From contig NZ_SAWZ01000003.1 of NCBI RefSeq assembly GCF_004122095.1, positions 248,001 through 312,000 on the forward strand: a DNA stretch of 64,000 nt. The letters are read 5' to 3'. The stretch comes from Pseudoxanthomonas composti. Its GTDB lineage: Bacteria; Pseudomonadota; Gammaproteobacteria; Xanthomonadales; Xanthomonadaceae. Both the position numbers and the translations under genes were made by a program. Positions within the stretch are counted from its first letter, which is position 1. Each line of letters starts with the position of its first letter. The notes below the pieces were generated by a model. It ran no database searches. It saw only the letters and a list, made by a program, of their open reading frames with translations, and had not been told where the DNA came from. Below are positions 1 through 27,610 of this stretch, in pieces.

Positions 1-1697
1 TACTTGCGGCCCGCCTCGCGCGTGGCTGGCGCGTAGAACTTGCCCCACACCGTGCCGGCGCCGTGCTTGGAGGGGATCTGCACGATCTGCGGCTGGATCC
101 AGTCGCGCGCCTTGAACGCCGCGCTGCGGGTGTCGGTGAGCACGCGCGCCTCGCCGCCGGCGGCCGGCACCACGGCCAGCTGCGTGGGCAGGTAGCTGCG
201 CGAGTACTCCACCAGCAGCTGGCGACCATCGGGCGAGGTCTGGAAGCTTTCCACGCCCTGCAGCGCGGTCAGCTCGCGTACCTGGCCACCGTCCACGCCC
301 ACGTTGCAGACCTCGTAGCGGCCCGGCTGCTGGCGATTGCACAGGAAGTTGAAGCTGCGCCCATCGGCCGACAGCTCCGGCATCGAGGCCTCCCACTTGC
401 CCGAGGTCAGCGCGCGGGCGCGGCCGCGCTCGCCGGCCACGTACAGGTGCGCGTATCCGCTTTCCTCGGACAGCAGCCACAGCGTGCGGTTGTCGCCCAG
501 CCAGCCGAAATCGTTGAAGCCCCAGTTGATCCAGGCCTCGTCGGTCAGACGGTGGCGCGAGGCCAGGGTGGCCTTGTCCAGGTCCACGCTGGCGATCCAG
601 CGGTCCTTGTTGTCGATGGCGCGCACCAGCACGGCCACGTTGCGGCCGTCGTTGCTCCAGCGGATCGCCGGACCCTCGCGGTCGGCTTCGATGCGCACGG
701 CGCGTTCCCCCTGCATCGGCTCCTGCCCGGCGGCCTTGCGCAGCTGGGCCAGCGGGTCGCGGTCGATGCCGGGCAGGGCATCGAACTTCAGCTCGCGCGC
801 GCCGGCGTTGGCCAGGTCCACCAGCCACAGGCGGTTGGGCAGCGGCAAGTTGCGGCCGACACGGGTGCGGACTTCTTGGAATTCCTCGTAGCCGGACTCG
901 GTGACGTACTTGGGCATCTTGCCGGCCTGGCCGGCACCGCCGTTCTTCTCCTGCGTCACCACCAGCAGCCAGCGGCCGTCGGGCGAGAGCGCGCTGCCTT
1001 CGATGCTGAGCTTGTTGCCCAGGTAGACGGTGGCGGGGGCCTGGCTGGCGTCAGCCTTGCGCCAGGCCTGCTGCTGCTCGCGCACGGCCTCGCGCTTGGC
1101 GCGATCCTCGGCCAGGGTCTTGAGCACACGCAGCTGGTAAGCGCGCAAGGCGTCCTTGGACGGGGCGGCCGGGTCGTTCTCGGCCTTCACTTCCGCGGCC
1201 TGGGCGACCACGCCGCCGGGCCACCAGCGGTACCACTGCGGCCCCACGCGCCAGGCCAGGCCGCCGTCGGTGGTGAACTGCGGCTGCTCCGCCTCCTGGT
1301 TGGCGCGGGTCAGCTGGGTCAGCGCGCCGCTGCGCAGATCGCGGATGAAGATGTTGCCGTCGCGCACGAAGGCCATGCGCTGGCGGCTGCTGTCGTACAC
1401 CGGCGCCTGGCCTTCCAGCGTGCCGCGCTGGTCGTCGGCCACGCGTGCGGCCGCACCGCCGCCCAGGTCCTGGCGGAAGGTGTCGCGCACCGGGCTGCCG
1501 TCGCGCTTGAGCGCGTATTGCACGTGGCGGCTGTCCCAGCTCCAGGTCGCCTCTTCCACCGGCGGGCCGATCCATTCCGGGTCGGCCATGACCTGCTCGA
1601 TCGTCAGCGGCGCGGTCTGCGCGGTCGCGGTGGGAACCAGGGCGGGCGAGGCCAGCAGGGCGGCCGCCAGCAGGGCGACAGGCAGGACAGGGCGCAT
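1..1697 (-). CDS. S9 family peptidase (DPP IV / prolyl oligopeptidase type), C-terminus cut by window edge
   Basis: This secreted serine peptidase would remove dipeptides or short peptides in the periplasm. The ATG at 1697 is followed by a typical signal peptide (MRPVLPVALLAAALLA, then a cut near ATAQ). About 565 residues are visible and read as the N-terminal beta-propeller of the DPP IV branch, with repeats such as 'SPDGRWLLVV', 'WSNDGRNVAV' and 'SADGRSFNFL'. The alpha/beta-hydrolase domain with Ser-Asp-His would lie beyond position 1, so the catalytic residues cannot be checked here. A weak GGA Shine-Dalgarno lies 6 nt before the start. A long inverted repeat separates it from the cytochrome gene upstream, so it is probably transcribed on its own. 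The family is clear; the substrate is not. Confidence 0.9.
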   Translation of the reverse strand, partial: MRPVLPVALLAAALLASPALVPTATAQTAPLTIEQVMADPEWIGPPVEEATWSWDSRHVQYALKRDGSPVRDTFRQDLGGGAAARVADDQRGTLEGQAPVYDSSRQRMAFVRDGNIFIRDLRSGALTQLTRANQEAEQPQFTTDGGLAWRVGPQWYRWWPGGVVAQAAEVKAENDPAAPSKDALRAYQLRVLKTLAEDRAKREAVREQQQAWRKADASQAPATVYLGNKLSIEGSALSPDGRWLLVVTQEKNGGAGQAGKMPKYVTESGYEEFQEVRTRVGRNLPLPNRLWLVDLANAGARELKFDALPGIDRDPLAQLRKAAGQEPMQGERAVRIEADREGPAIRWSNDGRNVAVLVRAIDNKDRWIASVDLDKATLASRHRLTDEAWINWGFNDFGWLGDNRTLWLLSEESGYAHLYVAGERGRARALTSGKWEASMPELSADGRSFNFLCNRQQPGRYEVCNVGVDGGQVRELTALQGVESFQTSPDGRQLLVEYSRSYLPTQLAVVPAAGGEARVLTDTRSAAFKARDWIQPQIVQIPSKHGAGTVWGKFYAPATREAGRK

Positions 1698-1782
1698 CGG
1701 TGATCCGTGTTGCGGGGGTGAAGGCCGCAAAGGGTAGCAGCCACCTCGGCGAGGCGGCTGTTCCGATGGTCATGGTGGAGGG

Positions 1783-1872
1783 AGGAACGAGCGTGGAGGA
1801 ACGAGGAACGAGTGGAAGCGGCCGGCGAAGTCCTCGCCCTCACTCGTTCCTCGTTCCTCTCCACTCGTTCCT
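1783..1872. repeat. Long inverted repeat, GAACGAG subfamily, copy 1
   Basis: The arms at 1783-1814 and 1841-1872 are 32 nt each and complementary except for about three positions, with a 26-nt spacer. Each arm contains tandem GGAACGAG units. The element lies just past the stop of the leftward cytochrome c gene and before the S9 peptidase start. As RNA it would fold into a very long stem and could terminate or protect the oxidase/cytochrome transcript. Related elements lie at 35334, 40836 and 58050. Confidence 0.85.
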
Positions 1873-1885
1873 TCCCCAATCCCCC

Positions 1886-2329
1886 TCACTCCCCCGCCGC
1901 CCGGCGCAGCTCCGCCACATCCGCCGCGCTGATGCGGTCCTCGTAGCGATTGCCGAAGTGCGTGCGCAGGTAGTTGGTGACATCGGCCACCTGCGCATCG
2001 GTCAGGGCCACGCCACGGGTCTGCGCCAGCTGCGCCGGGGTCACGCCGAAGGCCGGCATGTTCTTGCGCCCCTGCAGGATGGTCATGGCCACGTAGTGCG
2101 GCGAGGCCAGCGTCGGGTTGCCGGCCAGTGCCGGGTAATGGCCGACCTGGCTGGCGCCCTGGCCTTCGGGCATGTGGCAGCCCTGGCAGACATGGCGGTA
2201 GATGGTGGCGCCATCGGCCTTGCTGAACTGGCCGGTGCTCTGCATGGCGAAGGCCTCATCGGCATGGCTGGCCGGCTGCACCGCCAGCAGGACCAGGGCC
2301 AGGCCCGAGGGAAGCAAGCCACGCCTCAT
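1886..2329 (-). CDS. Secreted class I c-type cytochrome, partner of adjacent flavin oxidase (copy A)
   Basis: This is a 147-residue monohaem cytochrome c with a signal peptide (MRRGLLPSGLALVLLAV, cut near SHA-DEA). Haem is attached at CQGCH (residues 48-52), and the likely sixth ligand is Met91 in 'NMPAFG'. It is probably a periplasmic electron carrier that reoxidises the flavin of the upstream amine oxidase and passes electrons to the respiratory chain. The start overlaps the oxidase stop (ATGA at 2326-2329) and has GGGAG upstream, so the pair is translationally coupled. A paralogous pair of exactly the same lengths follows at 4033-6095. The role is inferred from coupling, not shown. Confidence 0.9.
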   Translation of the reverse strand: MRRGLLPSGLALVLLAVQPASHADEAFAMQSTGQFSKADGATIYRHVCQGCHMPEGQGASQVGHYPALAGNPTLASPHYVAMTILQGRKNMPAFGVTPAQLAQTRGVALTDAQVADVTNYLRTHFGNRYEDRISAADVAELRRAAGE

Positions 2330-3933
2330 GATTTGGCTCCCGCGACAACACGCTGGTGGATGCGCTCGATGGCATCCAGCGCCGAGGTGATCGATCCTTC
2401 CTGCCAGCCGCCCAGGAACGAGGCATGCTCGCCAGCCAGGGCGATGCGGCCATCGATCTGGCACAGGTCGTCGTAGTGCTTCTCGCGGGCTTCCTCGGTC
2501 CAGATGCCGGCGCAGCCCTGGGTGAAGGGCGAGCGGTGCCAGGCCACGGAGATGCCGTTCTCGAATTCCTGCTTGTACTGCGGATGGATCTGGCTGCCGT
2601 ATTCCACCGCCTTGGCCACGCGTTCGGCCGGTGCCATGGAGGTGAACTCGGCCGAGTTGAGGCTGCCATAGGTGAAGGCGCCCAGCAGCACCCCCTTGCC
2701 GCGGCTGTAGTAGTCGCAGCTGGGGTAGGAAATGTGGGTGATGGGCAGGCCGGTGTAGGTGATGCCGCCGTAGATCTGCTCGTCCTCTTCCCAGAAGCGG
2801 CGCTTGAACTGCAGGCCGATCTTGACCGAGGCGCTGTACGGCACCGCGGCGATCGCTGCCTCCATCTTCGGCCCGACGTTGATCGGCAGCTGGCTCAGGA
2901 TCGACAGCGGGATCGTGCACAGGCACCAGTCCGCGCGCGCGGTCTGGGTGCTGCCCGGGCTGGCCGTATCCTCGTAGCTGACGCTCACCCCGCGCGCATC
3001 CTGCTGGATCGCGGTGACCTTGGCGCCGTACTGGATCAGCGCGCCCAGTTCGCGGCCGAAGGCCTTGCCGATCATGCCCATGCCGCCGACCGGCTGGAAC
3101 ATGGTGGTCTGCCACTCGTAGGTCTCACCCGGCAGCAGGCCGGCCCAGGTGTTGGAATCGAGGATCTCGCCCAGCCCCAGGGGATCGGAGAACCGCGGCC
3201 GCGCCGACAGACCGCCGGATGGGTCCTTCAGATAACCGCGGCGCGCATTGCTGGCCTCGCCCGTGCGGTAGGCGTAACGCTGGTCCAGGGCGCCCCATTG
3301 CCGCAGCGACTCCAGCAGCTTCTCCTGGTCCTCGCGCGTGACCTGCGCATCCAGTGCGCGCTGCTGCAGCGACTTGGCCAGCAGTTCGGCCACATGTCCG
3401 TGATAGTCGGCTCGGATGGCACGGAAGCGCTGCGGCCTGCCGCCGAAGTGCGCCGGGCTGTGCATGAAGGCGTTGTAGTTGACCTGAATGAAGGGCTCCA
3501 CGGCCACGCCCAGGCGCCGGCAGTAGCCCAGCACCGCGGTGTGGTGGTGCGGGATGCGCCAGGGCCCGGGATTGACGTACAGGCCCTCATCGAACTCGCA
3601 GCGCTGGGTGGCCCCGCCCAGTTCGGTGTAGGTGTCGCCGCCGTACAGGCTCCAGTTGCGGCCACCGGGGCGCTGGTTGTACTCCAGCACCTTGACCGTA
3701 TAGCCGGCATCGCGCAGCTCCATCGCCGCGGCCATGCCGGCCACGCCGGCGCCCAGCACCAGCACCGAGGTGCCCTTGGGCGCGCCCTGCAGCTTGACCG
3801 GACCCTTGTAGGGCGAAGGGCCGGCCAAGCCCAGCGAGGTCATGGCCGCATACATCGCCGCGCCACCGGCGCTGACGCCGATCATCTGCAGCAGTTCGCG
3901 ACGGCTCATCGAGGGACGGCTTGGGTCCTGCAT
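2326..3933 (-). CDS. Tat-exported flavin amine oxidase (monoamine oxidase family), copy A
   Basis: This 535-residue FAD enzyme belongs to the flavin monoamine oxidase / L-amino acid oxidase superfamily. It begins with a twin-arginine signal (SRRELL at residues 10-15, then a mildly hydrophobic stretch), so folded holoenzyme should be exported. The dinucleotide fold is GAGVAG (61-66) with Glu84 ending beta-2, followed by 'RPGGRNWSLYGG'. The C-terminal FAD-contact region is 'LAGEHASFLGGWQEG'. It would oxidise a primary amine or amino acid to an imine. Coupling to a cytochrome c suggests it works as a dehydrogenase rather than releasing peroxide. The start at 3933 is backed by AGGAG 6 nt upstream. 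The substrate is unknown. About two-thirds of residues match the copy at 4488-6095 by eye. Confidence 0.9.
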   Translation of the reverse strand: MQDPSRPSMSRRELLQMIGVSAGGAAMYAAMTSLGLAGPSPYKGPVKLQGAPKGTSVLVLGAGVAGMAAAMELRDAGYTVKVLEYNQRPGGRNWSLYGGDTYTELGGATQRCEFDEGLYVNPGPWRIPHHHTAVLGYCRRLGVAVEPFIQVNYNAFMHSPAHFGGRPQRFRAIRADYHGHVAELLAKSLQQRALDAQVTREDQEKLLESLRQWGALDQRYAYRTGEASNARRGYLKDPSGGLSARPRFSDPLGLGEILDSNTWAGLLPGETYEWQTTMFQPVGGMGMIGKAFGRELGALIQYGAKVTAIQQDARGVSVSYEDTASPGSTQTARADWCLCTIPLSILSQLPINVGPKMEAAIAAVPYSASVKIGLQFKRRFWEEDEQIYGGITYTGLPITHISYPSCDYYSRGKGVLLGAFTYGSLNSAEFTSMAPAERVAKAVEYGSQIHPQYKQEFENGISVAWHRSPFTQGCAGIWTEEAREKHYDDLCQIDGRIALAGEHASFLGGWQEGSITSALDAIERIHQRVVAGAKS

Positions 3934-4032
3934 GCAAGGCTCCTGGCGGGTGGGAAGAAGCTGGCTGCGGTGCTGGCGCGCTGCGCGGACAAAGGTGCGG
4001 CATGCGGCGGCGCGATGGACCGCCGCGCGCGC

Positions 4033-4476
4033 TCAGTCGCCGCGCAGGGCGGCCACGTCCGATGCGCTGAGGTTGTCCTGGTAGTGGTTGCCGAAGTGCG
4101 TGCGCAGGTAGTTGGTCACCTCGGCGATCTGCTTGTCGGTCAGGCCGACGTTGCGCATGTCGTTGGCGTATTTTTCGCCACGCCCGAAGGCCGGCATGTT
4201 CTTGCGGCCCTGCATGACCGTCAGCGCCACGTACTGCGGCGAGACCAGGGTGGGGTTATCGACGAAGCCGGGGTAGTAACCGACCTGCCGTGCCCCTTTG
4301 CCGTCGGCCATGTGGCAGCCCTGGCAGACCTGGGTGTAGATGCCGGCGCCATCGAGCCGGGACAGGTCCGCGGCGGTGTGCAGGGGCTCGGCTTCGTCGG
4401 CGAGCACGGGCAAGGCCAAGGCAAGCCCCAGCGTCGCAGCCAGGGAGGCGAAGCGGATCGTGCGCATGCGGTTCAT
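4033..4476 (-). CDS. Secreted class I c-type cytochrome, partner of adjacent flavin oxidase (copy B)
   Basis: This is the paralogue of the cytochrome at 1886-2329, also 147 residues. It has a signal peptide (MNRMRTIRFASLAATLGLALALPVLA in outline), haem-binding CQGCH at 51-55 and Met94 in 'NMPAFG'. It differs from copy A by a short insert ('RGEKYANDMR') after the Met ligand. I chose the ATG at 4476 because GAGGAG lies 8 nt upstream. An in-frame ATG at 4491 that overlaps the oxidase stop (ATGA) is the alternative and would add five residues. It probably acts as periplasmic electron acceptor for the oxidase encoded just upstream. Confidence 0.9.
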   Translation of the reverse strand: MNRMRTIRFASLAATLGLALALPVLADEAEPLHTAADLSRLDGAGIYTQVCQGCHMADGKGARQVGYYPGFVDNPTLVSPQYVALTVMQGRKNMPAFGRGEKYANDMRNVGLTDKQIAEVTNYLRTHFGNHYQDNLSASDVAALRGD

Positions 4477-4487
4477 CGGCGTACTCC

Positions 4488-6095
4488 TCATGGACGTGCG
4501 CCTGCCAGCACATGCTGGTGCAGGCGCCCGATGGCGTCGTGGGCCGAGGTGATGGCCCCTTCCATCCACGCCGGGATGTAGGAGGCGTGCTCGCCCGCCA
4601 GGGCGATGCGGCCATCGATCTGGCACAGGTTGTCGTAGTGCTCGGCGCGGGTGTCCTCGGTCCAGCGGCCGGCGCAGCCCTGGGTGAAGGGCACGCGGTG
4701 CCAGGCCACGGCGATGCCGTTGTCGAATTCGGCGCGGTACTGCGGATGGATGCGGCTGCCGTACTCCAGCGCGGCCTCGATACGCTGCTCCGGCGTCATC
4801 GAGGTCAGCTCCACCGCGCCCTGGCCGCCGGCATACGCACCCAGCAGCACGCCCTTGCCATCGCTGAAGTAGTCCGTGGCCGGATAGGCGATGCTGCGGA
4901 TCGGCGTGTCGGTGTAGCTGATGCCGCCATAGATGCGCTCGTCCTGCTCCCAGAAGCGGCGCTTGAACTGCAGGCCGACCTTGACCGAGGCGTTGTAGGG
5001 CACGGCCGAGATCGCCGCTTCCATCTTCGGCCCGACGTTGATCGGCAGCTGGCTCAGGATCGACAGCGGCAGCGTGCACAGGCACCAGTCCGCGCGCTCG
5101 GTCAGGGTGCTGCCCGGTGCGGCCAGGTCCTCGTAGGAGACGGTGACGCCGCTGGCATCCTGGCGGATCTCGGTGATCTTGCTGCGATAGCGGATCACCT
5201 CGCCCAGGGCCTTGCCGAAGGTCTTGCCGATCATGCCCATGCCGCCGACCGGCTGGAACATGGTGGTCTGCATCTCGTAGTTCTCGCCGGCCACCAGTCC
5301 CGACCACGCATCGGCGCTGAGCATGTCCTGCAGCGTCAGCGGCTGGGACGGGATCGGTCGCGCGCTCAGGCCGCCGCCCGGGTCCTTTTCGAAACCGCGG
5401 CGATTGCTGCTGGCCGTGCCCTTGACGTAGCGGTGGTCCTTGCCCAGCGCGCCCCAGCTGCGCAGGCCTTCCAAGAGCTTTTCGCGGTCCTCGCCGGTGA
5501 CGGCGGCCTCCAGCGCGTTCTGCTGGATCGCCTTGGACAGCAGTTCGGCGATATGGCCCTGGGCATCGGCCTTGATAGTGCGCAGCCGCTGCGGCTTGCC
5601 GCCGAAGGCCTGGCTGTTGTGCAGGAAGGCGTTGTAGTTGACCTGGATGAAGGGCTCCAGCTTGACCCCCAGCATCTTGCAGGTGTCCAGCACGGCGTGG
5701 TGGTGGTACGGGATGCGCCAGGGGCCGGGGTTGAGATACAGCCCCTTGTCGAACCGGCAATGCTGGGTGGCGCCGCCGAGCTCGGTGTAGGTGTCCCCGC
5801 CGTACAGGCTCCAGTTGCGGCCGCCGGCGCGATCGTTGTACTCCAGGATCTTTACCTTGTAGCCGGCCTTGCGCAGCTCCCACGCCGCGGTCATGCCGGC
5901 CAGCCCCGCACCGAGGATCAGCACCGAGGTGCCGGCCCTGGGGCGTCCTTCCAGCTTGATCGGACCGGTATAGCTGGACTCGGCGGCGAAGCCGAGCTGG
6001 ATCATCGCCTGGTACATGGCCGCACCACCGGCGCTCAGGCCGATCATGCGCAGCAGTTCGCGGCGGCTGGGCGAGGGATTGGAAGCGTCTGGCAT
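4488..6095 (-). CDS. Tat-exported flavin amine oxidase (monoamine oxidase family), copy B
   Basis: This 535-residue paralogue has exactly the length of copy A at 2326-3933. It has the Tat motif SRRELL (10-15), the FAD fold GAGLAGMTAA, 'RAGGRNWSLYGG' and the C-terminal 'LAGEHASYIPAWMEG'. Conservation is highest in the FAD core and in 'VNYNAFLH', 'FQPVGGMGMIGK' and 'PLSILSQLPINVGPKMEAAI'. The ends and the segment near 215-250 differ more. That pattern fits an old tandem duplication with possible substrate divergence. The start at 6095 has a modest GAG upstream. The gene is divergent from the secreted RidA-like gene at 6382, about 290 nt away, which fits a shared imine chemistry. Confidence 0.9.
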   Translation of the reverse strand: MPDASNPSPSRRELLRMIGLSAGGAAMYQAMIQLGFAAESSYTGPIKLEGRPRAGTSVLILGAGLAGMTAAWELRKAGYKVKILEYNDRAGGRNWSLYGGDTYTELGGATQHCRFDKGLYLNPGPWRIPYHHHAVLDTCKMLGVKLEPFIQVNYNAFLHNSQAFGGKPQRLRTIKADAQGHIAELLSKAIQQNALEAAVTGEDREKLLEGLRSWGALGKDHRYVKGTASSNRRGFEKDPGGGLSARPIPSQPLTLQDMLSADAWSGLVAGENYEMQTTMFQPVGGMGMIGKTFGKALGEVIRYRSKITEIRQDASGVTVSYEDLAAPGSTLTERADWCLCTLPLSILSQLPINVGPKMEAAISAVPYNASVKVGLQFKRRFWEQDERIYGGISYTDTPIRSIAYPATDYFSDGKGVLLGAYAGGQGAVELTSMTPEQRIEAALEYGSRIHPQYRAEFDNGIAVAWHRVPFTQGCAGRWTEDTRAEHYDNLCQIDGRIALAGEHASYIPAWMEGAITSAHDAIGRLHQHVLAGARP

Positions 6096-6381
6096 TGCGG
6101 TCTCGTGTTGCGGCGTGATCGTGCAGCGCGGTGTCGTCGGACCGGACGCTGCGGCAGCGGCATGCGTCGTGCGGCCGCGCAGGTTGCATCCTCGCGCGTG
6201 CGCGGCCACCGCATGGCCGGCGCGAGGGGTGGGGCCGGCGTGCGTGGGTAGTGCCGGGATGGTTGCGATTGAAAGCAGGAAGGCGCGCCGCGCGGCTTGC
6301 ACGATGGTCACGCGACAGGCGTCGCACACGCCCACGATGCGCGCTTATGCTGCGGCGACCTTTCCCGCGCTGGAGTCTTCG

Positions 6382-6882
6382 ATGGCCGCTGTCCGTCTTG
6401 CCTTGCTGTCCCTGCCGCTGTTGCTGTGCACCGCCGCTGCGGCGCAGGCCGCCGAGGTGAAGCGTCATCTGGATCCGGCCGGCAAGTCCTCCATCGCGCG
6501 TGCGGTCGAAGTGCCCGCGGACAAGACGGTGATCTATCTGAGCGGCGCTGTCCCCGGCGTTTCCGATCCCAAGGCGCCGAAGGATTCGCTGCAGGCCTAC
6601 GGCGACACCAAGACGCAGACCCTGAGCGTGCTGGCGCAGATCGACAAGCAGCTCAAGTCCTTAGGGCTGACCATGGGCGATGTGGTGAAGATGCAGGCCT
6701 TCCTGGTCGGCGGTCCGGAGACCGGCGGCAAGATGGATTCGGAGGGCTATCGCGCCGCCTATGCCGAATACTTCGGCACCCAGGCCCAGCCCAACCTGCC
6801 GGCGCGCTCGACCCTGCAGATCGCCGGCCTGGCCAATCCGGCCTTCCGCGTGGAGATCGAGGTGGTGGCCGTGCGCCCCTGA
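6382..6882 (+). CDS. Secreted RidA/YjgF-family protein (probable periplasmic imine deaminase)
   Basis: This is a 166-residue RidA-family protein with a signal peptide (MAAVRLALLSLPLLLCTAAA, cut near AQA-AEV), which is unusual for the mostly cytosolic core family. The catalytic arginine of RidA enzymes corresponds to Arg142 in 'LPARSTLQIAGL', followed by the family's 'FRVEIEVVAV' end, so hydrolytic deamination of imines/enamines is plausible. Flavin amine oxidases release imines, and two exported ones are encoded divergently just upstream. I infer that this protein clears their products in the periplasm. GGAG lies about 8 nt before the ATG. A longer reading frame exists upstream, but the signal peptide and ribosome site fix this start. 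Confidence 0.9.
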   Translation: MAAVRLALLSLPLLLCTAAAAQAAEVKRHLDPAGKSSIARAVEVPADKTVIYLSGAVPGVSDPKAPKDSLQAYGDTKTQTLSVLAQIDKQLKSLGLTMGDVVKMQAFLVGGPETGGKMDSEGYRAAYAEYFGTQAQPNLPARSTLQIAGLANPAFRVEIEVVAVRP

Positions 6883-7046
6883 GTGCGCGGTCCGCGGCCA
6901 TGTGCGTGGCGGTCGGCCACGGCCGCTGCCTGCCCGCTGCCCGCCGCGGGCAAACTTGCCTTTCACGACGCCCAGCGGCCAAGCTAGGCCCCTGATGTGC
7001 TCCGCGCAGCATGCTGCGGAGCGGTTTCCAGGGAACTTGCTACGAC

Positions 7047-8396
7047 ATGTCGGCCGTCATCCATGCTCCGTCCGCGCCCGCGGTCCAGATCACCTTGGGC
7101 GTGGGCGATCCTGCGCGCCTGATCGCCATCGACCGCGGCCAGCCCATCGATGTGGCCACCTTCCACGCGCATGTGCGCGGTGTCGCGGCCCTGCTGCCGC
7201 ACGGCCAGCACGCGGTGAACCTGTGCGAGAACCGCTACCGCTTCATCGTCGCCCTGTGCGCGGTGGCGCTGCGCGGGCAGATCACGCTGCTGCCGCCTTC
7301 GCGCGCACCGGCGGTGGTGGCCGAGGCGATGGCGCGCCACGCCGATAGCTGGGCGCTGGGCGATGAGGCCATCGAGCAGGCGCCTGCGCGCTACCTGCGC
7401 CTGCCCGAGACCCTGCCGATGGCTGATGGTCCGGTCCCGCAGGTGCCGCAGGATGCGCTGGCCGTGATCGGCTTCACCTCCGGCAGCACCGGCCAGCCCA
7501 AGCCCTACCCCAAGACCTGGGCCAGCTTTAGCACCAGCAACCAGCAGAATCTGCGCGCGCTGGCTTCGCTGTGGGCCGGGCAGGTGCCCAGCGTGGTGGC
7601 CACCGTGCCGCCGCAGCACATGTACGGCATGGAGCTGTCGGTGGTGATGCCGCTGCTGTCCGAGGTGGCCATCGATGGCGGCAGGCCGTTCTTTCCCGGC
7701 GATGTGGCCCAGGCGCTGGCCCAGGTGCCGGCGCCGCGGCTGCTGGTGACCACGCCGGTGCATCTGCGCGCGCTGGTGGATTCGGGTGTGCAGCTGCCGC
7801 CGCTGACGGCGATGGTCTCGGCCACCGCGCCGCTGTCCCAGGAACTGGCCCAGGCGGCCGAGGCGCGCTTTGCCGCGCCGGTGATGGAGATGTTCGGCTC
7901 GACCGAGACCTGCATCTTCGCCCACCGCCGCACCGCCATCGACACGCACTGGACGCCGCTGCCGAGCGTGCGCGTGATCCCGCAGCCCGACGGCAGCCTG
8001 GTGCAGGCCGCGCACCTGCCGCAGCCGGTGCCGCTGGCGGACCTGATGGAAGTCGAGCCCGACGGGCGCTTCCGCGTGCGCGGCCGCCAGGCCGACATGC
8101 TGGAGATCGCCGGCAAGCGCGCCTCGGTAGGCGATCTCACCCGCCGCTTGCTGGCTATCCCCGGCGTGCGCGACGGCGTGATGGTGCAGCTGGAGCAGGC
8201 CGACGATGTCGGCGTGCGCCGCATCGCCGCGCTGGTGGTGGCGCCGGAGCTGGACGAAGCCGCCATCCTGGCCGCGCTGCGCCAGGGCGTGGATCCGGTG
8301 TTCCTGCCGCGGCGCATCCGCTTTCTCGGCGCGCTGCCGCGGGCCGAGACCGGCAAGCTGCCGCGCGCGGACGTGTTGAAGCTGCTGGACGCTTGA
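7047..8396 (+). CDS. AMP-binding acyl/aryl adenylating enzyme of the pigment cluster
   Basis: This 449-residue ANL-superfamily enzyme would adenylate an aromatic acid (3- or 4-hydroxybenzoate in xanthomonadin models) and load it onto the cluster ACP. Visible motifs are the P-loop 'FTSGSTGQPK' near residue 145, 'EMFGSTETC' and the hinge region 'GRQADMLEIAGKR'. The catalytic lysine lies near the C-terminus in 'AETGKLPR'. It resembles the AMP ligase found in aryl-polyene clusters. The start at 7047 (MSAVIHAPSAP) is chosen over an in-frame site 36 nt upstream because similarity-like sequence begins there; no strong ribosome site separates them. It opens the pigment locus and is followed 50 nt later by an unknown gene. 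Confidence 0.88.
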   Translation: MSAVIHAPSAPAVQITLGVGDPARLIAIDRGQPIDVATFHAHVRGVAALLPHGQHAVNLCENRYRFIVALCAVALRGQITLLPPSRAPAVVAEAMARHADSWALGDEAIEQAPARYLRLPETLPMADGPVPQVPQDALAVIGFTSGSTGQPKPYPKTWASFSTSNQQNLRALASLWAGQVPSVVATVPPQHMYGMELSVVMPLLSEVAIDGGRPFFPGDVAQALAQVPAPRLLVTTPVHLRALVDSGVQLPPLTAMVSATAPLSQELAQAAEARFAAPVMEMFGSTETCIFAHRRTAIDTHWTPLPSVRVIPQPDGSLVQAAHLPQPVPLADLMEVEPDGRFRVRGRQADMLEIAGKRASVGDLTRRLLAIPGVRDGVMVQLEQADDVGVRRIAALVVAPELDEAAILAALRQGVDPVFLPRRIRFLGALPRAETGKLPRADVLKLLDA

Positions 8397-9514: not shown

Positions 9515-10516
9515 TCACCCATGCACGCCATCGATCTCCACCGCCAGCTCGCGGCGGCAGATCGCGGCGTGCAGGAGCATGCGCGGCACGCGCTGGCCGA
9601 AGCGCTCGTCCAGCGCCTGCGCCACCGTGGGCAGGTCGTCGGCATCGCGCACGTAGACCTTCAGGCGCGTGCTTTCGCCGAAGGCCAGCGGGAGCGCCGG
9701 CGCGTGCTTGCGCGCCGATTCCAGCAGTGCATCGAAGTTGAGCAAGGTCTCGCGCAACTGCGCCAGCAGCTGGCCTGCATGCAGGGTCTCGTGGCCGACG
9801 ATGCTGGCCGTGCCCGACAGCAGCAGCGGCATGTCGCTGCCGGCCGGCGGCACCATCGCGCGGGCGAAGCTGGGGGACTGCGGGCCGTACTGGCGCGGAT
9901 AGCGGTAGGCGCTGATCTGCCGCGGGTTCTCCACCGGCGTGCCGGCCTGGCGCGCGGCCAGCCAGTAGACCTGCAGGGTGCGCACCTCGTCGCTGCGGCC
10001 GATGCCGGTGGCCGCGGGCAGCTGGTGGTCCTCGAAGCGGCCCAGGCCACGGGCGCGGCCCACGCAGAACTCGCGGTAGCGCTCGCGGTCGCCCTCGCCC
10101 AGGGTGATGCCGCTGAGGTAGTTCCACATGCGCAGCAGATGCGGGGTCTGGCTGCCGCGGATGAGTTCGGACAGCGCGCCGTAGGCCAGCGCGGCCGCTT
10201 CCTCGATGCCGATCTTGCGCTCGTCCACCTCGATCACGCCGAACTGCAGCTCGCCGTCGGTGGCCCAGGCGATCTCGCCGGTGCGTCCGGCATGCACCGG
10301 GCGCGTGGTGCGCCAGACTTCCAGCATGCGCGGGCCATAGGGCTGCAGCGGCACGCGCAGATAGCGCGGGTCCTCGTGCACCGGTGCATCGCTGCCGAAG
10401 CCGAACACCGCCAGCACGCGCGGGTCCTCCAGCAGCGTGGACGGCGCGGTTTCCGGAACGTAATCCACCGTCAGGTGCGGGGGCAGGGCGGCATCCACCG
10501 CATGCGGTTGGCTCAC
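9515..10516 (-). CDS. xanB2: XanB2-type chorismatase (hydroxybenzoate-forming)
   Basis: This 333-residue protein of the chorismatase (FkbO/Hyg5/XanB2) family would split chorismate to pyruvate plus 3- or 4-hydroxybenzoate. XanB2 of Xanthomonas supplies the aromatic starter of xanthomonadin and the precursor of ubiquinone. The C-terminal half shows the YjgF-like fold of the family ('GTASIVGHETLHAGQ', residues 235-249, and 'RLKVYVRD'). 'RMWNYLSGI' near 129-137 and 'YRYPRQYGPQSPSFARA' near 205-220 look like substrate-site segments. The start is a GTG at 10516 with AGGAG upstream. It overlaps the stop of the preceding gene by 4 nt (GTGA), showing tight coupling with the halogenase-like gene. Confidence 0.88.
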   Translation of the reverse strand: MSQPHAVDAALPPHLTVDYVPETAPSTLLEDPRVLAVFGFGSDAPVHEDPRYLRVPLQPYGPRMLEVWRTTRPVHAGRTGEIAWATDGELQFGVIEVDERKIGIEEAAALAYGALSELIRGSQTPHLLRMWNYLSGITLGEGDRERYREFCVGRARGLGRFEDHQLPAATGIGRSDEVRTLQVYWLAARQAGTPVENPRQISAYRYPRQYGPQSPSFARAMVPPAGSDMPLLLSGTASIVGHETLHAGQLLAQLRETLLNFDALLESARKHAPALPLAFGESTRLKVYVRDADDLPTVAQALDERFGQRVPRMLLHAAICRRELAVEIDGVHG

Positions 10517-11880
10517 GAACGATCTCCTTGCAAGGTCTCTCCGTCGAAGCGCGCGCGGCGCTGGCGACGGCGATGCAGCCAGGCCCGCCAGGCCTTGGGC
10601 GCCATCAGCGTCGAGGCGGTGAAATACAGCGCGCGGAACACGCGCAGCCGGCGGGTGACGGCCGGCGCGTCGAACACATCGCCGGCCAGCATCGCCACCA
10701 CCGCGTTCTCCACCTGCAGCACGTTGCGCGGATTGGCGAACAGGTGGCGCATGGCCGGCGAGGTGAAGCGATAGATGAACCACTTGAACTCATCCAGCCC
10801 GCCGACCAGATGCTTTTCCAGCGTGCGCCGCAGCGCCGGCTCACGGGCGGGCTCGCGCAGCGCGGCATCGACGGTGGCGGCGGCCTGCTCGGCGCCGTGC
10901 ATGGCCAGGTACACGCCGGAGGAGAACATCGGATCGACGAAGGCGTAGGCATCGCCGACCAGCAGCCAGTTCGGCCCGCCCATGCGCGTGCATTCGTAGG
11001 CGTAGTTGCCGGTGGCGTGCACTGGCGCCACCCGACGCGCGCCGGCCATGCGTTCGTTGGCTTCCGGATTGAGCGCGATCGTGCGGCGCAGGAAGGCTTC
11101 GCTGTCGCCGTGACGGGTCTTCATGTAGTCGGGAAAGCACACCACGCCCACACTCATCACCTCATCGCGCAGCGGGATCAGCCACATCCAGCCATGCCGA
11201 TGGCGGTAGATGCTGATGTTGCCGGCATCCTCGCCCGGCCGGCGGGTCACGCCCGTGAAATGGCTGAAGATCGCCGCGGACTGGTGCCGCGCATTCTTGC
11301 GCTTGAGCTTGAGCTTGCTGCCCAGCACGGTGTCGCGGCCGCTGGCGTCGAGCAGGTAGCGCGGCTGGAACACGCGCGTGGTGCCTTCCTGGCTTGCCTG
11401 CACCACCGGTTGCGTGCCCTGCATGGCGACATCGCTCACGCGCACGCCCTCGCGCGCGTCTACGCCGGCGGCGCGGGCGTTGTCGAACAGGATCTTGTCG
11501 AACTCCTCGCGCCTGACCTGGAAGGCGTAGTCGGCCTTGGCGCCCAGCGCATGGGTGAAGCGGAAAGTGTTGTAGCCGCCGGTGTCGGCCGGGAAGTCCG
11601 CGCCGAGCTTGAGCACGCCGACCTGGCGCACCTGCTCCAGCACGCCCAGGCGCTCCAGGATCGGCATGTTCATCGGCAGCAGCGATTCGCCGATGTGGAA
11701 GCGCGGGTGGTGGTCCTTTTCCAGCAGGGTCACCTGCCAGCCCTGGCGGGCCAGGAAGGTGGCCGCGGTGCTGCCGGCCGGGCCGCCGCCGATCACCAGG
11801 ACATCGGGGCGCTCGATCTGCGCCGCCGTCGGCGCAGCGGCCGCTGGCGGGGCGACGGGGTCGGCGATGGCTGCGGTCAT
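10513..11880 (-). CDS. Halogenase-like FAD-dependent oxidoreductase of the pigment cluster (1)
   Basis: This 455-residue flavoprotein is related to flavin-dependent (tryptophan-type) halogenases. It has the FAD fold GGGPAG (31-36), 'RFHIGESLLP' (60-69) and the halogenase signature WxWxIP as 'WMWLIP' (231-236). 'GDAYAFVDPMFSSG' follows near residue 330. Xanthomonadins are mono- or di-brominated aryl polyenes, so halogenation of the aryl ring is a reasonable role. Dehydrogenation during polyene formation is an alternative. The ATG at 11880 begins a Pro/Ala-rich leader of about 20 residues that may be unstructured. The gene is divergent from the ACP gene at 12009 and coupled to the downstream chorismatase by a 4-nt overlap. 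Confidence 0.85.
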   Translation of the reverse strand: MTAAIADPVAPPAAAAPTAAQIERPDVLVIGGGPAGSTAATFLARQGWQVTLLEKDHHPRFHIGESLLPMNMPILERLGVLEQVRQVGVLKLGADFPADTGGYNTFRFTHALGAKADYAFQVRREEFDKILFDNARAAGVDAREGVRVSDVAMQGTQPVVQASQEGTTRVFQPRYLLDASGRDTVLGSKLKLKRKNARHQSAAIFSHFTGVTRRPGEDAGNISIYRHRHGWMWLIPLRDEVMSVGVVCFPDYMKTRHGDSEAFLRRTIALNPEANERMAGARRVAPVHATGNYAYECTRMGGPNWLLVGDAYAFVDPMFSSGVYLAMHGAEQAAATVDAALREPAREPALRRTLEKHLVGGLDEFKWFIYRFTSPAMRHLFANPRNVLQVENAVVAMLAGDVFDAPAVTRRLRVFRALYFTASTLMAPKAWRAWLHRRRQRRARFDGETLQGDRS

Positions 11881-12008
11881 CCGTGGAACCTGGTACGAAA
11901 GTGGTGCGAAAGGCGGCCATGATAGCGCCAGCGACCCGTGCCCGAGCTTGCGCGTCAGGCGCCGATGCACCATCGTGTCGCACCTTTTCATGCTGGGGAG
12001 CCCCGTCG

Positions 12009-24039: not shown

Positions 24040-24297
24040 ATGCAAGCCTACGTCTACAAGAGCCTGCGCAAGGCCGATACCTATGTGTACCTGGCGGCGC
24101 GCGACGATTTCGCGCGCGTACCCGAGCCGCTGCGCACGCAGCTGGGCGAGCTGCAGTTCGTGCTGGACGTGGCGCTGACGCCCGAGCGCAAGCTGGCGCG
24201 CGACGACGTCAAGGCCGTGCGCGCCAACCTGTCCGCGCACGGGTTCCACATCCAGTTCCCGCCGACCTGGGCCCTGAACGGCAGCGCCGATGCCTGA
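24040..24297 (+). CDS. YcgL domain protein
   Basis: This 85-residue cytosolic protein belongs to the YcgL family (DUF709). It begins 'MQAYVYKSLRKADTYVYL', matching the family's opening strand-helix pattern, and ends with 'FHIQFPPTWAL'. The family is conserved in gamma-proteobacteria; its biochemical function is not established as far as I know. It overlaps the following ankyrin gene by 8 nt, so the two are probably co-translated. An in-frame upstream extension starting at 23830 is rejected because it has no similarity to the family. Confidence 0.88.
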   Translation: MQAYVYKSLRKADTYVYLAARDDFARVPEPLRTQLGELQFVLDVALTPERKLARDDVKAVRANLSAHGFHIQFPPTWALNGSADA

Positions 24298-27200
24298 CCC
24301 CGCCCATCGCCGGCTGGCCATCGTGGCCCTGGTCGCAGGGCTGCTGCTGTCCCTGCTGACCTTCTGGCCGGGGCTGCCCGCGCTGCTGGGCGGCTGGCTG
24401 GCGCAGCCGGCCCTGGCGCTGGCCGTGTCCTGGTTCGCCGGCACCCGCGGGCGGCCCTCGGCGCGGTTCCTACAGCACGACCTGCTGGCCCCGACGCTGC
24501 TGTGGGCGCTGGCCCTGGCGGTGGCCGGCGGGCTGCTGGCCTGGCCGCTGGGCAGCCTGCGCGGCGCGGCCAGCCTGAGCGCCACGCTGGGCCTGAGCGC
24601 CGCCGCCGCGGGTTGCGTGATCGCACTGTGGCGCACCTGGCCGCTGTGGCAGTCGGTGGAGCGGCAAAGCGCCCCGGCCGGGCGCCATCTGCATGCGCTC
24701 AAGGCCGCGGAAGCCGGTGCCTGGCGCGGGCTGGCCGTGGCCCTGGTGCCGGCCTCGATCATCGCCGCGCTGCTGTGCCTGGCCTGGCCAGCGCTGCTGC
24801 CCAGCCACGCCCGACTGCCTGCCGCGGTGGCTTTCGCCCTGCTCTCGCCGGTGCTGCACTGGATCCTGCAGCGCACCCCGCGCGCGGCCGGCCTGCCGGT
24901 GATGGAGATGCGCACGCCAAGGCCGGCCCCGCGCGAGGAGATTCCGCTGGTGGCCGCGCCCGCACCGCTGGCGCCGCTGCCGCCGGAGCCGGCCATCGAC
25001 CGCTCGCTCGACGGCGCGCTATACGAAGCCGCGCGCAGCGGCCGCGTGGACCGCGCGCTGGAGCTGCTGGAGCAGGGCGCCGACCCGCGCGCCGCGCCGC
25101 CGCCGCAAGGCCGCGACCAGCGCGCCCTGGTCGCCTTGGCCGCGGTGCTGCCGGACCTGCGACTGCTGCGCACCTTGATCGCCCACGGCGTGGACGTGAA
25201 CCAGCTGCACGCCGGCATGACGCCGCTGCTGGCGGCCACGCGCGACAGCTGGCACGGCCGCCCGGACGCGGTGACCACGCTGCTGGCCAATGGCGCCGAT
25301 CCGCGGATCGGCGACCGCGACGGCAACACCCCGCTGCACCATGCCGCGCGCAGTTCCGACCCGGGCGTGGCCGCGCTGCTGCGCGATGCCGCCGCCGAGA
25401 TCGACGCGCTCAACAAGGAAGGGCTGACCCCGCTGGGCGTGGCCTGCCTGGTCGGCAACTGGCGCCTGGCCAAGTACCTGCTGGAGCGCCATGCCAAGCC
25501 CGAGCCGCCGCAGGGCCGCGCCGTGCTGCTGGCCGCCGCGGCCACCGAGGAGGACGACCCGGCCGGCGTGCAGTTGCTGCTCAAGCACAAGGCCAAGCTC
25601 AATGTGCGCGGCGCCGGCGGCCGGACGCCGCTGCACGAGGCGGCCCTGGCCGGCCATCTGGAGATCTGCGAAGCCCTGCTGGCGGCCGGCGCCGAGGTCG
25701 ACGCGCGCGATGACGCGCAGCGCACGCCCTGGCTGGATGCGGCACGCGCCGGGCGCGGCCCGGTGCTCGATGCCCTGGCCCGGGCCGGCGCCGACGTGAA
25801 CGCCGTGGACGCCCAGGGCCGCAACGCGCTGGCCCTGGCCTGTGCGGCCGAGTCCATCGCCCCGGCGCGCATCACTCGTCTGCTGGAGCTGGGGGTGGAC
25901 GCGCAGCAGGCCGACCGTGAGGGACGCCGCGCCGTGGACCTGGCCGCGGAAGCCGGCCGCTGGGCCTTGGTGAGCGCGCTCGACCCCGACTACCCCTTGC
26001 CTTCGGCCGTGGCCGAAGGCGGGGCCGAGACCCCGCCGGACCGCACCCCGGCCTCGCTGCTGCGCGATGCCCTGGCCGCGCGCAAGCTGGAGGACCTGGA
26101 TGGCCTGGTGAAGCTGTGCGCGCCGGAGGAACTCGGCGCCCTGCTGCACGACCCGGCCCTGACCGGCGATGTCGGCGCGGTGCGCTGGCTGCTGCGCCAC
26201 GGCGCGGCGCCGGAGGTGCTCAACAGCCAGCGCGACACCCCCTTGATGGCGGCCCTGGCGCAGGGCGCGGCGGGCATGCCGATCGCGCGTGTGCTGCTCA
26301 ACACCGGCCTTTCGCCGAGCGGACGCGGCGGCCTGGCCCGCTTCATGGCCGCCTGCCTGGCCGAGGGCCAGGGCGATGCGGCGGCCGAGACTTTCGCCCG
26401 CGGGCTGATCGAACGCGGCGCGGATCTGTTGGCTGTGTCTCCGGCCGGCGACCCGCCGTTGTCGCTGGCCCTGCGCCTGGACTGGGCCGCGCTGGCCGAT
26501 GACCTGTTGCTGCGCGGCGCGGACCGCCAGGCGCGCGACGCGCGTGGCATGTCGCCCCTGCACCTGGCCGCCGCGCTGGGGCGCGAGGAAGACGTGCGCC
26601 GCCTGATCGCGCACGGCGCGCGCCCGGATGTGCGCGCCGCCGATGGCCAGACGCCGTTGGGCGTGGCGCTGTCCAGCGGCCGCCGCGACCTGGCCGACTG
26701 GCTGGATTGGCGCGGCTGGAAATTGCCGACGCGTCCTTTACGCGCGGCCGACCTGCCCTCGGCGGCAATGGCTGGCGATGCCGATGCCGTGCGCCGCCTG
26801 CTGGCGCTGGGCTTTCCCATCGATGCGGTGGACGGGCAGGGCTGCAGCGCGCTGCTGCGCGCGGCCGGTGGCGGGCACCTGGCCACGGTCGAGCTGCTGC
26901 TGGCGCGCGGCGCCGACGCCGGCCAGGCCGCGCGTTCGGGCGCCACCCCGCTGTCGGCGGCGGTGAGCATGCGCCAGACCGACGTGGTCGCCGCCCTGAT
27001 CGCCAGCGGCGTGGACCTGGAACAGCGCCTGCCCGGCGGCGTCACCGTGCTGATGCTGGCCGCCGCGCTGGGCCTGCCGGACATCTGCGCGCGGCTGCTC
27101 ACCGCGGGCGCGGACATCCAGGCCAGCGACGACCAGGGCCTGACCGCGCTGCACTGCGCCGCCCTGTTCGGCTTCTCCTGCAGCGATCGCGAGCGCCTGG

Positions 27201-27610
27201 TGGCGCTGCTGGATACCCTGCTGCTGGCCGGCGCCGACCCCGAGGCCGCCGCGGCCGGCTCGGTCACGCCGCTGCTGCTGCTGCTGGGCGCGCGCGCCGA
27301 GCCGGGCACCAGCGCCAATGAAGAGGTGATCCTGACCGCGCTGGCCCACCTGCTGGACGAGGGCGTGTCGCTGGAGGTCAAGGACCCGCGTGGCTTCGGC
27401 CCGCTGCACCTGTCGGCCCTGCACGGCATGCTGCACGTGGTGCAGCGCCTGCAGCGTGCCGGCGCCGACCCGGACATGCGCGATGCCCTGGGCCGCACCC
27501 CGCGCGAGATCGCGGTGATGCGCGGCTTCGTCGATGTCGCCAGCGAGCTGGCCCCCCCGGTCCCCGGCACGGGCGCCCCGCTGAGCCGTTTCCTGCGCGA
27601 GCGGGGCTGA
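24290..27610 (+). CDS. Large membrane-anchored ankyrin-repeat protein
   Basis: This 1106-residue protein has an N-terminal membrane part: hydrophobic segments near 8-30, 35-50, 66-85, 93-113, 148-168 and 176-193. A Pro-rich linker ('[11 protein letters not shown]', 223-233) joins it to an array of about 20 ankyrin repeats running to the C-terminus. The repeats show the usual 'G.TPLHxAA..G....V..LL..GAD' pattern, for example '[31 protein letters not shown]'-type units near 440-470, although several are degenerate. It probably acts as a protein-binding scaffold on the cytoplasmic face of the inner membrane. The binding partner is unknown. It overlaps the YcgL gene by 8 nt and lies 2 nt before csaA. 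Confidence 0.88.

Follow-up and report, generated by a model that had tools for sequence, protein, structure and literature searches.

A doubled gene cluster for probable exported amino acid oxidation, with a divergent Rid gene, in Pseudoxanthomonas composti

Amino acid oxidases are described in textbooks as users of O2 that make H2O2. A gene cluster of Pseudoxanthomonas composti, in which two exported-looking flavoenzymes of this type are each encoded next to a cytochrome c, raises the question of where the electrons go and of what the Rid protein encoded beside them could be doing. The cluster lies at positions 1886-6882 of a 64,000-nucleotide stretch (contig NZ_SAWZ01000003.1, positions 248,001 to 312,000), which is called here the window. 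It is a doubled cluster, probably for exported amino-acid oxidation, with the gene set first noted for it. The two flavoenzymes, aoA and aoB, are probably periplasmic, cytochrome-coupled L-amino acid dehydrogenases, possibly of different specificity, with Rid clearing the imines. This is preferred because of the published relatives (PMC12224317, PMC5619798, PMC5053998) and because of gene order: in a scan of named genomes, from which the best 80 of 471 confirmed loci were taken, a c-type cytochrome gene was directly downstream of the oxidase at all 80 loci and a Rid gene was near 57 of them. The sequences show gene content, motifs, a conserved neighbourhood, family placement, differences in the pocket region and a syntenic empty site. 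The elements of the cluster, with lengths in amino acids (aa), are:

1886..2329, minus strand: cytA, 147 aa, exported-looking monohaem cytochrome c with CQGCH and NMPAFG (likely axial Met)
2326..3933, minus strand: aoA, 535 aa, L-amino acid oxidase-type flavoenzyme with a twin-arginine translocation (Tat) motif, pocket-variant paralogue (Phe420)
4033..4476, minus strand: cytB, 147 aa, exported-looking monohaem cytochrome c
4488..6095, minus strand: aoB, 535 aa, Tat-motif L-amino acid oxidase-type flavoenzyme
6096..6381, no strand: 286-bp intergenic region flanked by the divergent aoB and rid
6382..6882, plus strand: rid, 166 aa, Rid3-like imine/enamine deaminase with a signal-peptide-like N-terminus and Arg142

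Coordinates and Pfam agree with the sequence-only reading of this DNA, which had described two pairs of a 535-aa oxidase and a 147-aa cytochrome, an ATGA overlap and a divergent Rid with Arg142. On the minus strand the order of transcription is aoB, cytB, aoA and cytA, and rid is divergent on the plus strand. cytB follows aoB after 11 bp, aoA follows cytB after 99 bp, and the last two genes, aoA and cytA, share a four-base overlap (ATGA, with the aoA stop). A pattern scan of the aoB/rid intergenic region for a sigma-70-like promoter or a terminator found none, shuffles having an expectation of 0.4 and 1.9.

Regarding the flavoenzymes, Pfam PF01593 (Amino_oxidase) was found in both (E 5.4e-48 and 4.3e-52), and NCBIfam gave nothing above its cut-offs for the five proteins of the cluster (for the oxidases, among the best 25 of 46 and the best 25 of 44 matches). 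A Tat-type SRR, located by motif only, occupies residues 10-12 of each and is followed by a hydrophobic stretch. aoA and aoB are 69-70% identical and differ by small indels, so their equal lengths look incidental. Among the matches listed for aoA in the PDB (best 60 of 97), the first is the L-amino acid oxidase (LAAO) of R. opacus (2JAE, E 2.8e-87, residues about 49-530), followed by ancestral and snake LAAOs, and LSD1, MAO B and others score far lower, mostly over the FAD-binding stretch. The best match of aoB is likewise 2JAE (E 1.8e-87, about 480 residues). A MAO-like amine oxidase was ruled out by this ranking of the best 60 of 97 matches, among which NicA2 did not appear. By their sequences, both proteins are flavoenzymes of the L-amino-acid-oxidase type, with full-length likeness to characterised LAAO (RoLAAO-type, PF01593) and with presumed substrates. 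The R. opacus enzyme, their closest solved sequence over some 480 residues, shares an Arg and a Lys with them; the window enzymes add the Tat motif and the cytochrome partner, and aoA has Phe in place of a Tyr. A tree of 104 rows was built from 103 chosen loci, with L124 taken out and copies A and B added; every row (104/104) keeps Arg126 and Lys371, numbered as in aoA. Arg126 would correspond to the substrate Arg of LAAO and Lys371 to the O2-linked Lys at flavin N5. A Lys of the flavin-N5 type has been described for NicA2 and its kin (PMC12224317).

The cytochromes carry Pfam PF00034 (Cytochrom_C, E 1.9e-11 and 5e-9), the CQGCH haem motif and hydrophobic N-termini (by motif and hydropathy), and are 58% identical across the aligned domain. 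An oxidase with a cytochrome directly downstream occurs in 3/3 copies of the genome, and such an adjacent, exported-looking cytochrome c gene is one mark of cytochrome c-using flavin amine dehydrogenases.

The rid product contains Pfam PF01042 (Ribonuc_L-PSP, E 9.7e-16), and its N-terminus is hydrophobic and signal-peptide-like by motif and hydropathy. Its two strong PDB matches, PFL_1385 and PSPTO_3006, are its closest solved sequences; Arg142 is aligned with their active-site Arg, and Ile38 with their Ile in a comparison to these two only. An Ile in place of RidA Tyr17 is presumably the mark of Rid3, and rid appears closest to Rid3, as placed by nearest solved relatives only. PFL_1385 and PSPTO_3006 are assigned to subfamily Rid3 and hydrolyse imines that snake LAAO makes from several L-amino acids (PMC5619798). 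This published activity on amino acid imines is theirs, whereas the window Rid is the one that sits with LAAO genes. The PFL_1385 match begins already at rid residue 9, within the hydrophobic stretch of the N-terminus. Six PF01042 proteins are encoded in the genome, of which the Rid3 profile reached four; an exported-looking N-terminus is present in three of these four (the window Rid, that of L004/L009 and L006) and not in L008. L006 is a further Rid of this genome, at G000:C24:115589-115921.

The three-part core of the cluster is already known. In Gluconacetobacter diazotrophicus, transposon hits in lao abolished the formation of indole-3-acetic acid (IAA) from tryptophan, and ccm mutants, as cited in the same paper, made 5%; moreover, lao, cccA and ridA transcripts were lower in a mutant, a Tat signal was noted, and cytochrome c and RidA were proposed to cooperate with LAAO (Rodrigues 2016, PMC5053998). 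The lao-cccA-ridA organisation was also reported there as conserved in Caulobacter and Xanthomonas. The window cluster has the same three adjacent gene kinds, LAAO with Tat motif, cytochrome c and Rid, and the same cooperation is proposed for it, so the idea that the four-plus-one combination had not been described does not stand for the core or for its hypothesis. The layouts differ: G. diazotrophicus has one co-directional operon, whereas the window has a single Rid gene and, divergent from it, two oxidase-cytochrome pairs. The added facts are the doubled, diverged arrangement and an aminotransferase neighbour, described below. The literature search, judged by titles and the openings of abstracts, turned up no further paper on an LAAO-cytochrome-RidA set.

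Furthermore, NicA2/CycN, Pnao and the dehydrogenases of Akram 2025 (PMC12224317) combine a Tat flavoenzyme with an adjacent Sec cytochrome c and belong to the same superfamily as the window enzymes. In that work, most Tat flavin amine oxidoreductases encoded beside a cytochrome gene were shown to be dehydrogenases that use the cytochrome; for the clade 2 and clade 3 enzymes classed as putative dehydrogenases, kox CytC is about 1e4-1e6 against a kox O2 of 24-6600 M-1 s-1, the B. anthina enzyme being ambiguous among them.

The co-occurrence in other genomes that had been suggested as a check was seen throughout for the cytochrome and at the majority of the 80 loci for Rid, which was downstream at 56 and divergent at one (Stenotrophomonas sp. 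MMGLT7). With patterns that were loosened after inspecting the misses of stricter first ones, a Tat-type RR was present in 79/79 intact oxidases (72/79 at first), the active Arg in 56/56 full-length Rids (46/56 at first) and the axial-Met pattern MPxF in 68/80 cytochromes (57/80 at first), the other 12 carrying GMPPV or GMPAV. CxxCH was found in 80/80 cytochromes and a hydrophobic N-terminus in 55/56 full-length Rids. For 22 loci at class and phylum level, the looser patterns gave RR in 21/22 oxidases and Arg in 16/16 Rids, and in further genomes of the family oxidase, cytochrome and Rid were together in 20/20 fetched regions. Full-length relatives of the oxidase occur in 8/38 genomes of the genus, 33/297 of the family (E < 1e-200), 45/299 of the order, 5/369 of the class and 18/398 of the phylum, all counts including this genome and, from family to phylum, scoring three or four candidates per genome. 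In Xanthomonas axonopodis DSM 3585 (L124) the oxidase and rid frames are each broken by a stop codon; in other species they are intact.

In the proposed mechanism, aoA and aoB would fold around FAD in the cytoplasm before their export by Tat. The oxidase would convert an extracytoplasmic L-amino acid to a 2-imino acid and pass two electrons, singly, to its own partner cytochrome, which would feed a respiratory oxidase, and Rid would hydrolyse the imine to a keto acid and ammonia. TatC, CcmE and two COX1 matches are present in the genome. Within this scheme, we infer the location, the electron acceptor, the substrates and the coupling to Rid; the cluster is real, well conserved and mechanistically sensible, and its functional steps are put forward as proposals. 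If they are true, a widespread branch of LAAOs in Pseudomonadota, nearly always with its own cytochrome c, would respire amino acids directly in the periplasm, and with tryptophan this would be an auxin route in plant-associated bacteria. The exported-looking Rid also gains clear candidate substrates from the cluster.

Several points weigh against this proposal. The Lys linked to O2 reactivity is kept, so the use of O2 is compatible with the sequences; aoA is without an otherwise invariant Tyr (Phe420); and three relatives with 39-42% identity (L225, L226 and L244) have a Tat motif and Rid and no cytochrome motif within 1.5 kb, being possible O2-using counterparts. In Akram 2025 (PMC12224317), clade 1 pairs react only modestly with their own c4 cytochromes. 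NicA2 was the seed for its enzyme set, and neither 'L-amino acid' nor 'Rid' occurs in the available text; the rule drawn from it would be an extrapolation to the LAAO branch. aoA and aoB could also be read as true L-amino acid oxidases of the periplasm, with O2 as their acceptor and H2O2 produced on the outer side of the inner membrane, and with cytochromes for another role such as peroxide removal or a general electron pool. Such a reading would suit the conservation of the Lys in 104/104 rows, the name oxidase carried by the nearest solved relatives and the existence of the three cytochrome-less relatives, as well as the fast reaction with O2 of most Tat enzymes without an adjacent cytochrome in Akram 2025. 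It is nevertheless unlikely in view of the downstream cytochrome at every scanned locus and in all three copies of this genome, the weakly supported agreement in branching order between the A and B cytochromes and their oxidases, and the ccm requirement cited in PMC5053998.

As to Rid, none was found in the fetched flanks of 23/80 loci, several of them on short contigs. The genomes of 20 of these 23 were searched, several being metagenome assemblies whose completeness is not given; eight had no Rid match at E 1e-20, and 12 had a match at that level or better elsewhere. The Rid partner is neither universal nor obligatory. The proposal of the sequence-only reading, that exported dehydrogenases feed cytochrome c while Rid removes their imines, is kept as the best one on gene order and published relatives, although with Rid as an optional partner. 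These Rid-less loci would also fit a Rid unconnected to the oxidases that serves another exported enzyme, and there is a candidate for it. Besides the doubled cluster, the genome has a canonical operon on a different contig (L004), co-directional and with the single-operon layout of lao-cccA-ridA, and directly after its lao-cytochrome-rid genes lies a Tat-motif, PtaA-like aminotransferase dependent on pyridoxal phosphate (PLP) (L004:5447-6661, contig C1). PtaA is a periplasmic transaminase of pyoverdine maturation and, like this aminotransferase, has a Tat motif. The protein scores 566 bits with PRK09105 (above the cut-off of 444) and 427 bits with NCBIfam PtaA (below 500); among solved structures it is best matched by histidinol-phosphate aminotransferase-like proteins. 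An aminotransferase downstream of the canonical operon was found at L004 and at 29 more loci, each of them from the family, where MMGLT7 is counted twice (L041, L138) and other repeats are possible; an in-frame Tat-type motif is present in 27 of these 30. A PtaA-like aminotransferase follows Rid at 14/19 canonical loci in genomes of the family and at 15/16 named Lysobacteraceae canonical loci (the sets partly overlap). On the other hand, the window Rid adjoins oxidases and no PtaA-like aminotransferase is found in the window cluster; the fetched loci of Alphaproteobacteria and Pseudomonas keep Rid after the oxidase-cytochrome pair with no aminotransferase match by tblastn at 1e-10; and clustering of Rid3 genes with FAD amine oxidases has been reported for some cases (PMC4433059). 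A Rid without connection to the oxidases is thus quite improbable.

The aminotransferase could also belong to a larger scheme, an extracytoplasmic amino-group pathway of Lysobacteraceae in which several cytochrome-coupled L-amino acid dehydrogenases of differing specificity (copy A possibly off free amino acids) would work with a Rid and a PtaA-like PLP aminotransferase, both exported, the latter perhaps exchanging amino groups with the keto acids from the dehydrogenases. We consider this speculative and hardly probable. The four-gene exported set with the aminotransferase is not mentioned in the available part of PMC5053998, and the literature search turned up no other paper on it.

Returning to the cytochrome-coupled dehydrogenases proposed here, the two copies differ in the pocket region. 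Position 420 is Phe in aoA and Tyr in the other 103/104 rows, aoB included. This Tyr we take to be Tyr371 of R. opacus LAAO, a contact of the substrate carboxylate; a literature search for the substrate residues of RoLAAO found no confirming paper. At the pair of positions that would hold the carboxylate, both copies have Arg, and aoB has Tyr whereas aoA has Phe. Two residues further on, aoA has Tyr, aoB and MMGLT7 have Gly (4/104 rows in all) and 82/104 rows have Trp. The segment reads FLGGW in aoA against YIPAW in aoB and YIPAW-like in most rows.

These differences could mean that free L-amino acids are no longer the substrates of copy A, which would instead act on an amine or on an amino acid that is modified or peptide-bound and has no free alpha-carboxylate, while copy B and the canonical enzyme remain amino acid dehydrogenases, which for B is compatible with the proposal above. 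The long branch of aoA (0.34) would suit such a shift, as would the same Tyr-to-Phe change in the wider relatives L237, L238 and L242, each in a genome listing two copies. However, the carboxylate role of the Tyr is presumed, the Arg is retained and Phe is able to preserve the shape. The FLGGW residues also occur singly in other rows (Phe in 8/104, the two Gly in 8/104 and 9/104). At columns at least 97% conserved, aoA shows four departures, the same number as aoB, and seven other checked rows show 1-10, so aoA does not look generally degraded or unusual; of its four, the Tyr-to-Phe change alone falls in the pocket region, and it is singular to aoA among the 104 rows. The pattern fits an altered specificity of one paralogue and does not indicate a substrate; a departure of copy A from free amino acids is conceivable, though rather doubtful. 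The two diverged enzyme-cytochrome pairs in one cell would be a natural test of the co-evolution of partner and substrate specificity.

The origin of the doubling was also considered. The L004 copy looks inherited, since it clusters (99) with rows from Pseudoxanthomonas and with same-genus rows. The nearest relative of aoB is in Stenotrophomonas sp. MMGLT7 (80%), with which it groups (100/99), together with Frateuria (100/97). aoA lies outside this group (88/81), and its placement is not firm. A tree with aoA and aoB constrained as sisters was rejected by the approximately unbiased (AU) test (p 0.00043), and in the cytochrome tree cytA is outside cytB and MMGLT7 with an SH-aLRT (Shimodaira-Hasegawa-like approximate likelihood ratio test) of 86, a weaker support than in the oxidase tree; the AU test and the cytochrome tree used 40 rows chosen by us from the 104. 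A recent tandem duplication was rejected on these two results. Hence the A pair either split off before the parting of B and MMGLT7, with a later loss in MMGLT7, or was separately brought in. The earlier suggestion that the duplication points to two substrates is still plausible, but it does not concern a fresh duplication.

The head-to-tail arrangement of oxidase, cytochrome, oxidase and cytochrome was seen only at the window's own locus among the loci read (102, L140-L177 and 23 more, many with 1.5 kb flanks only). One other locus (L245, G1060:C5:52001-72000) holds two oxidase-cytochrome sets whose oxidases lie on opposite strands with 1.4 kb between them; the pocket position is Tyr in one and Phe in the other, and two Rid genes are present. 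Within the genus, extra copies occur in this genome only, of 38, and the idea that the cluster is general in the genus was rejected.

Two genes flank the cluster:

1..1697, minus strand: DPP IV-like peptidase gene (Pfam DPPIV_N), partial at the window edge
7011..8396, plus strand: AMP-binding ligase gene, adjoining halogenase-like and chorismatase-like genes

This peptidase gene and this ligase gene border the cluster in MMGLT7 as they do in the window. The ligase is found in 12/38 genomes of the genus, including this one. In the other 11/11 the peptidase and ligase are direct neighbours, their matches starting 81-283 bp apart, and a search of these 11 fetched stretches at 1e-8 matched neither an oxidase nor a cytochrome nor a Rid. 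With this empty junction in its relatives, the cluster is a cassette gained or differentially lost at a defined site.

Beside the ligase, window positions 9518-11991 encode a chorismatase FkbO/Hyg5-like protein and a tryptophan-halogenase-like flavoprotein, and the ligase, halogenase-like and chorismatase-like genes are consistent with an aryl pigment-type cluster. Further along, a 1106-aa frame at 24290-27607 is rich in ankyrin repeats.

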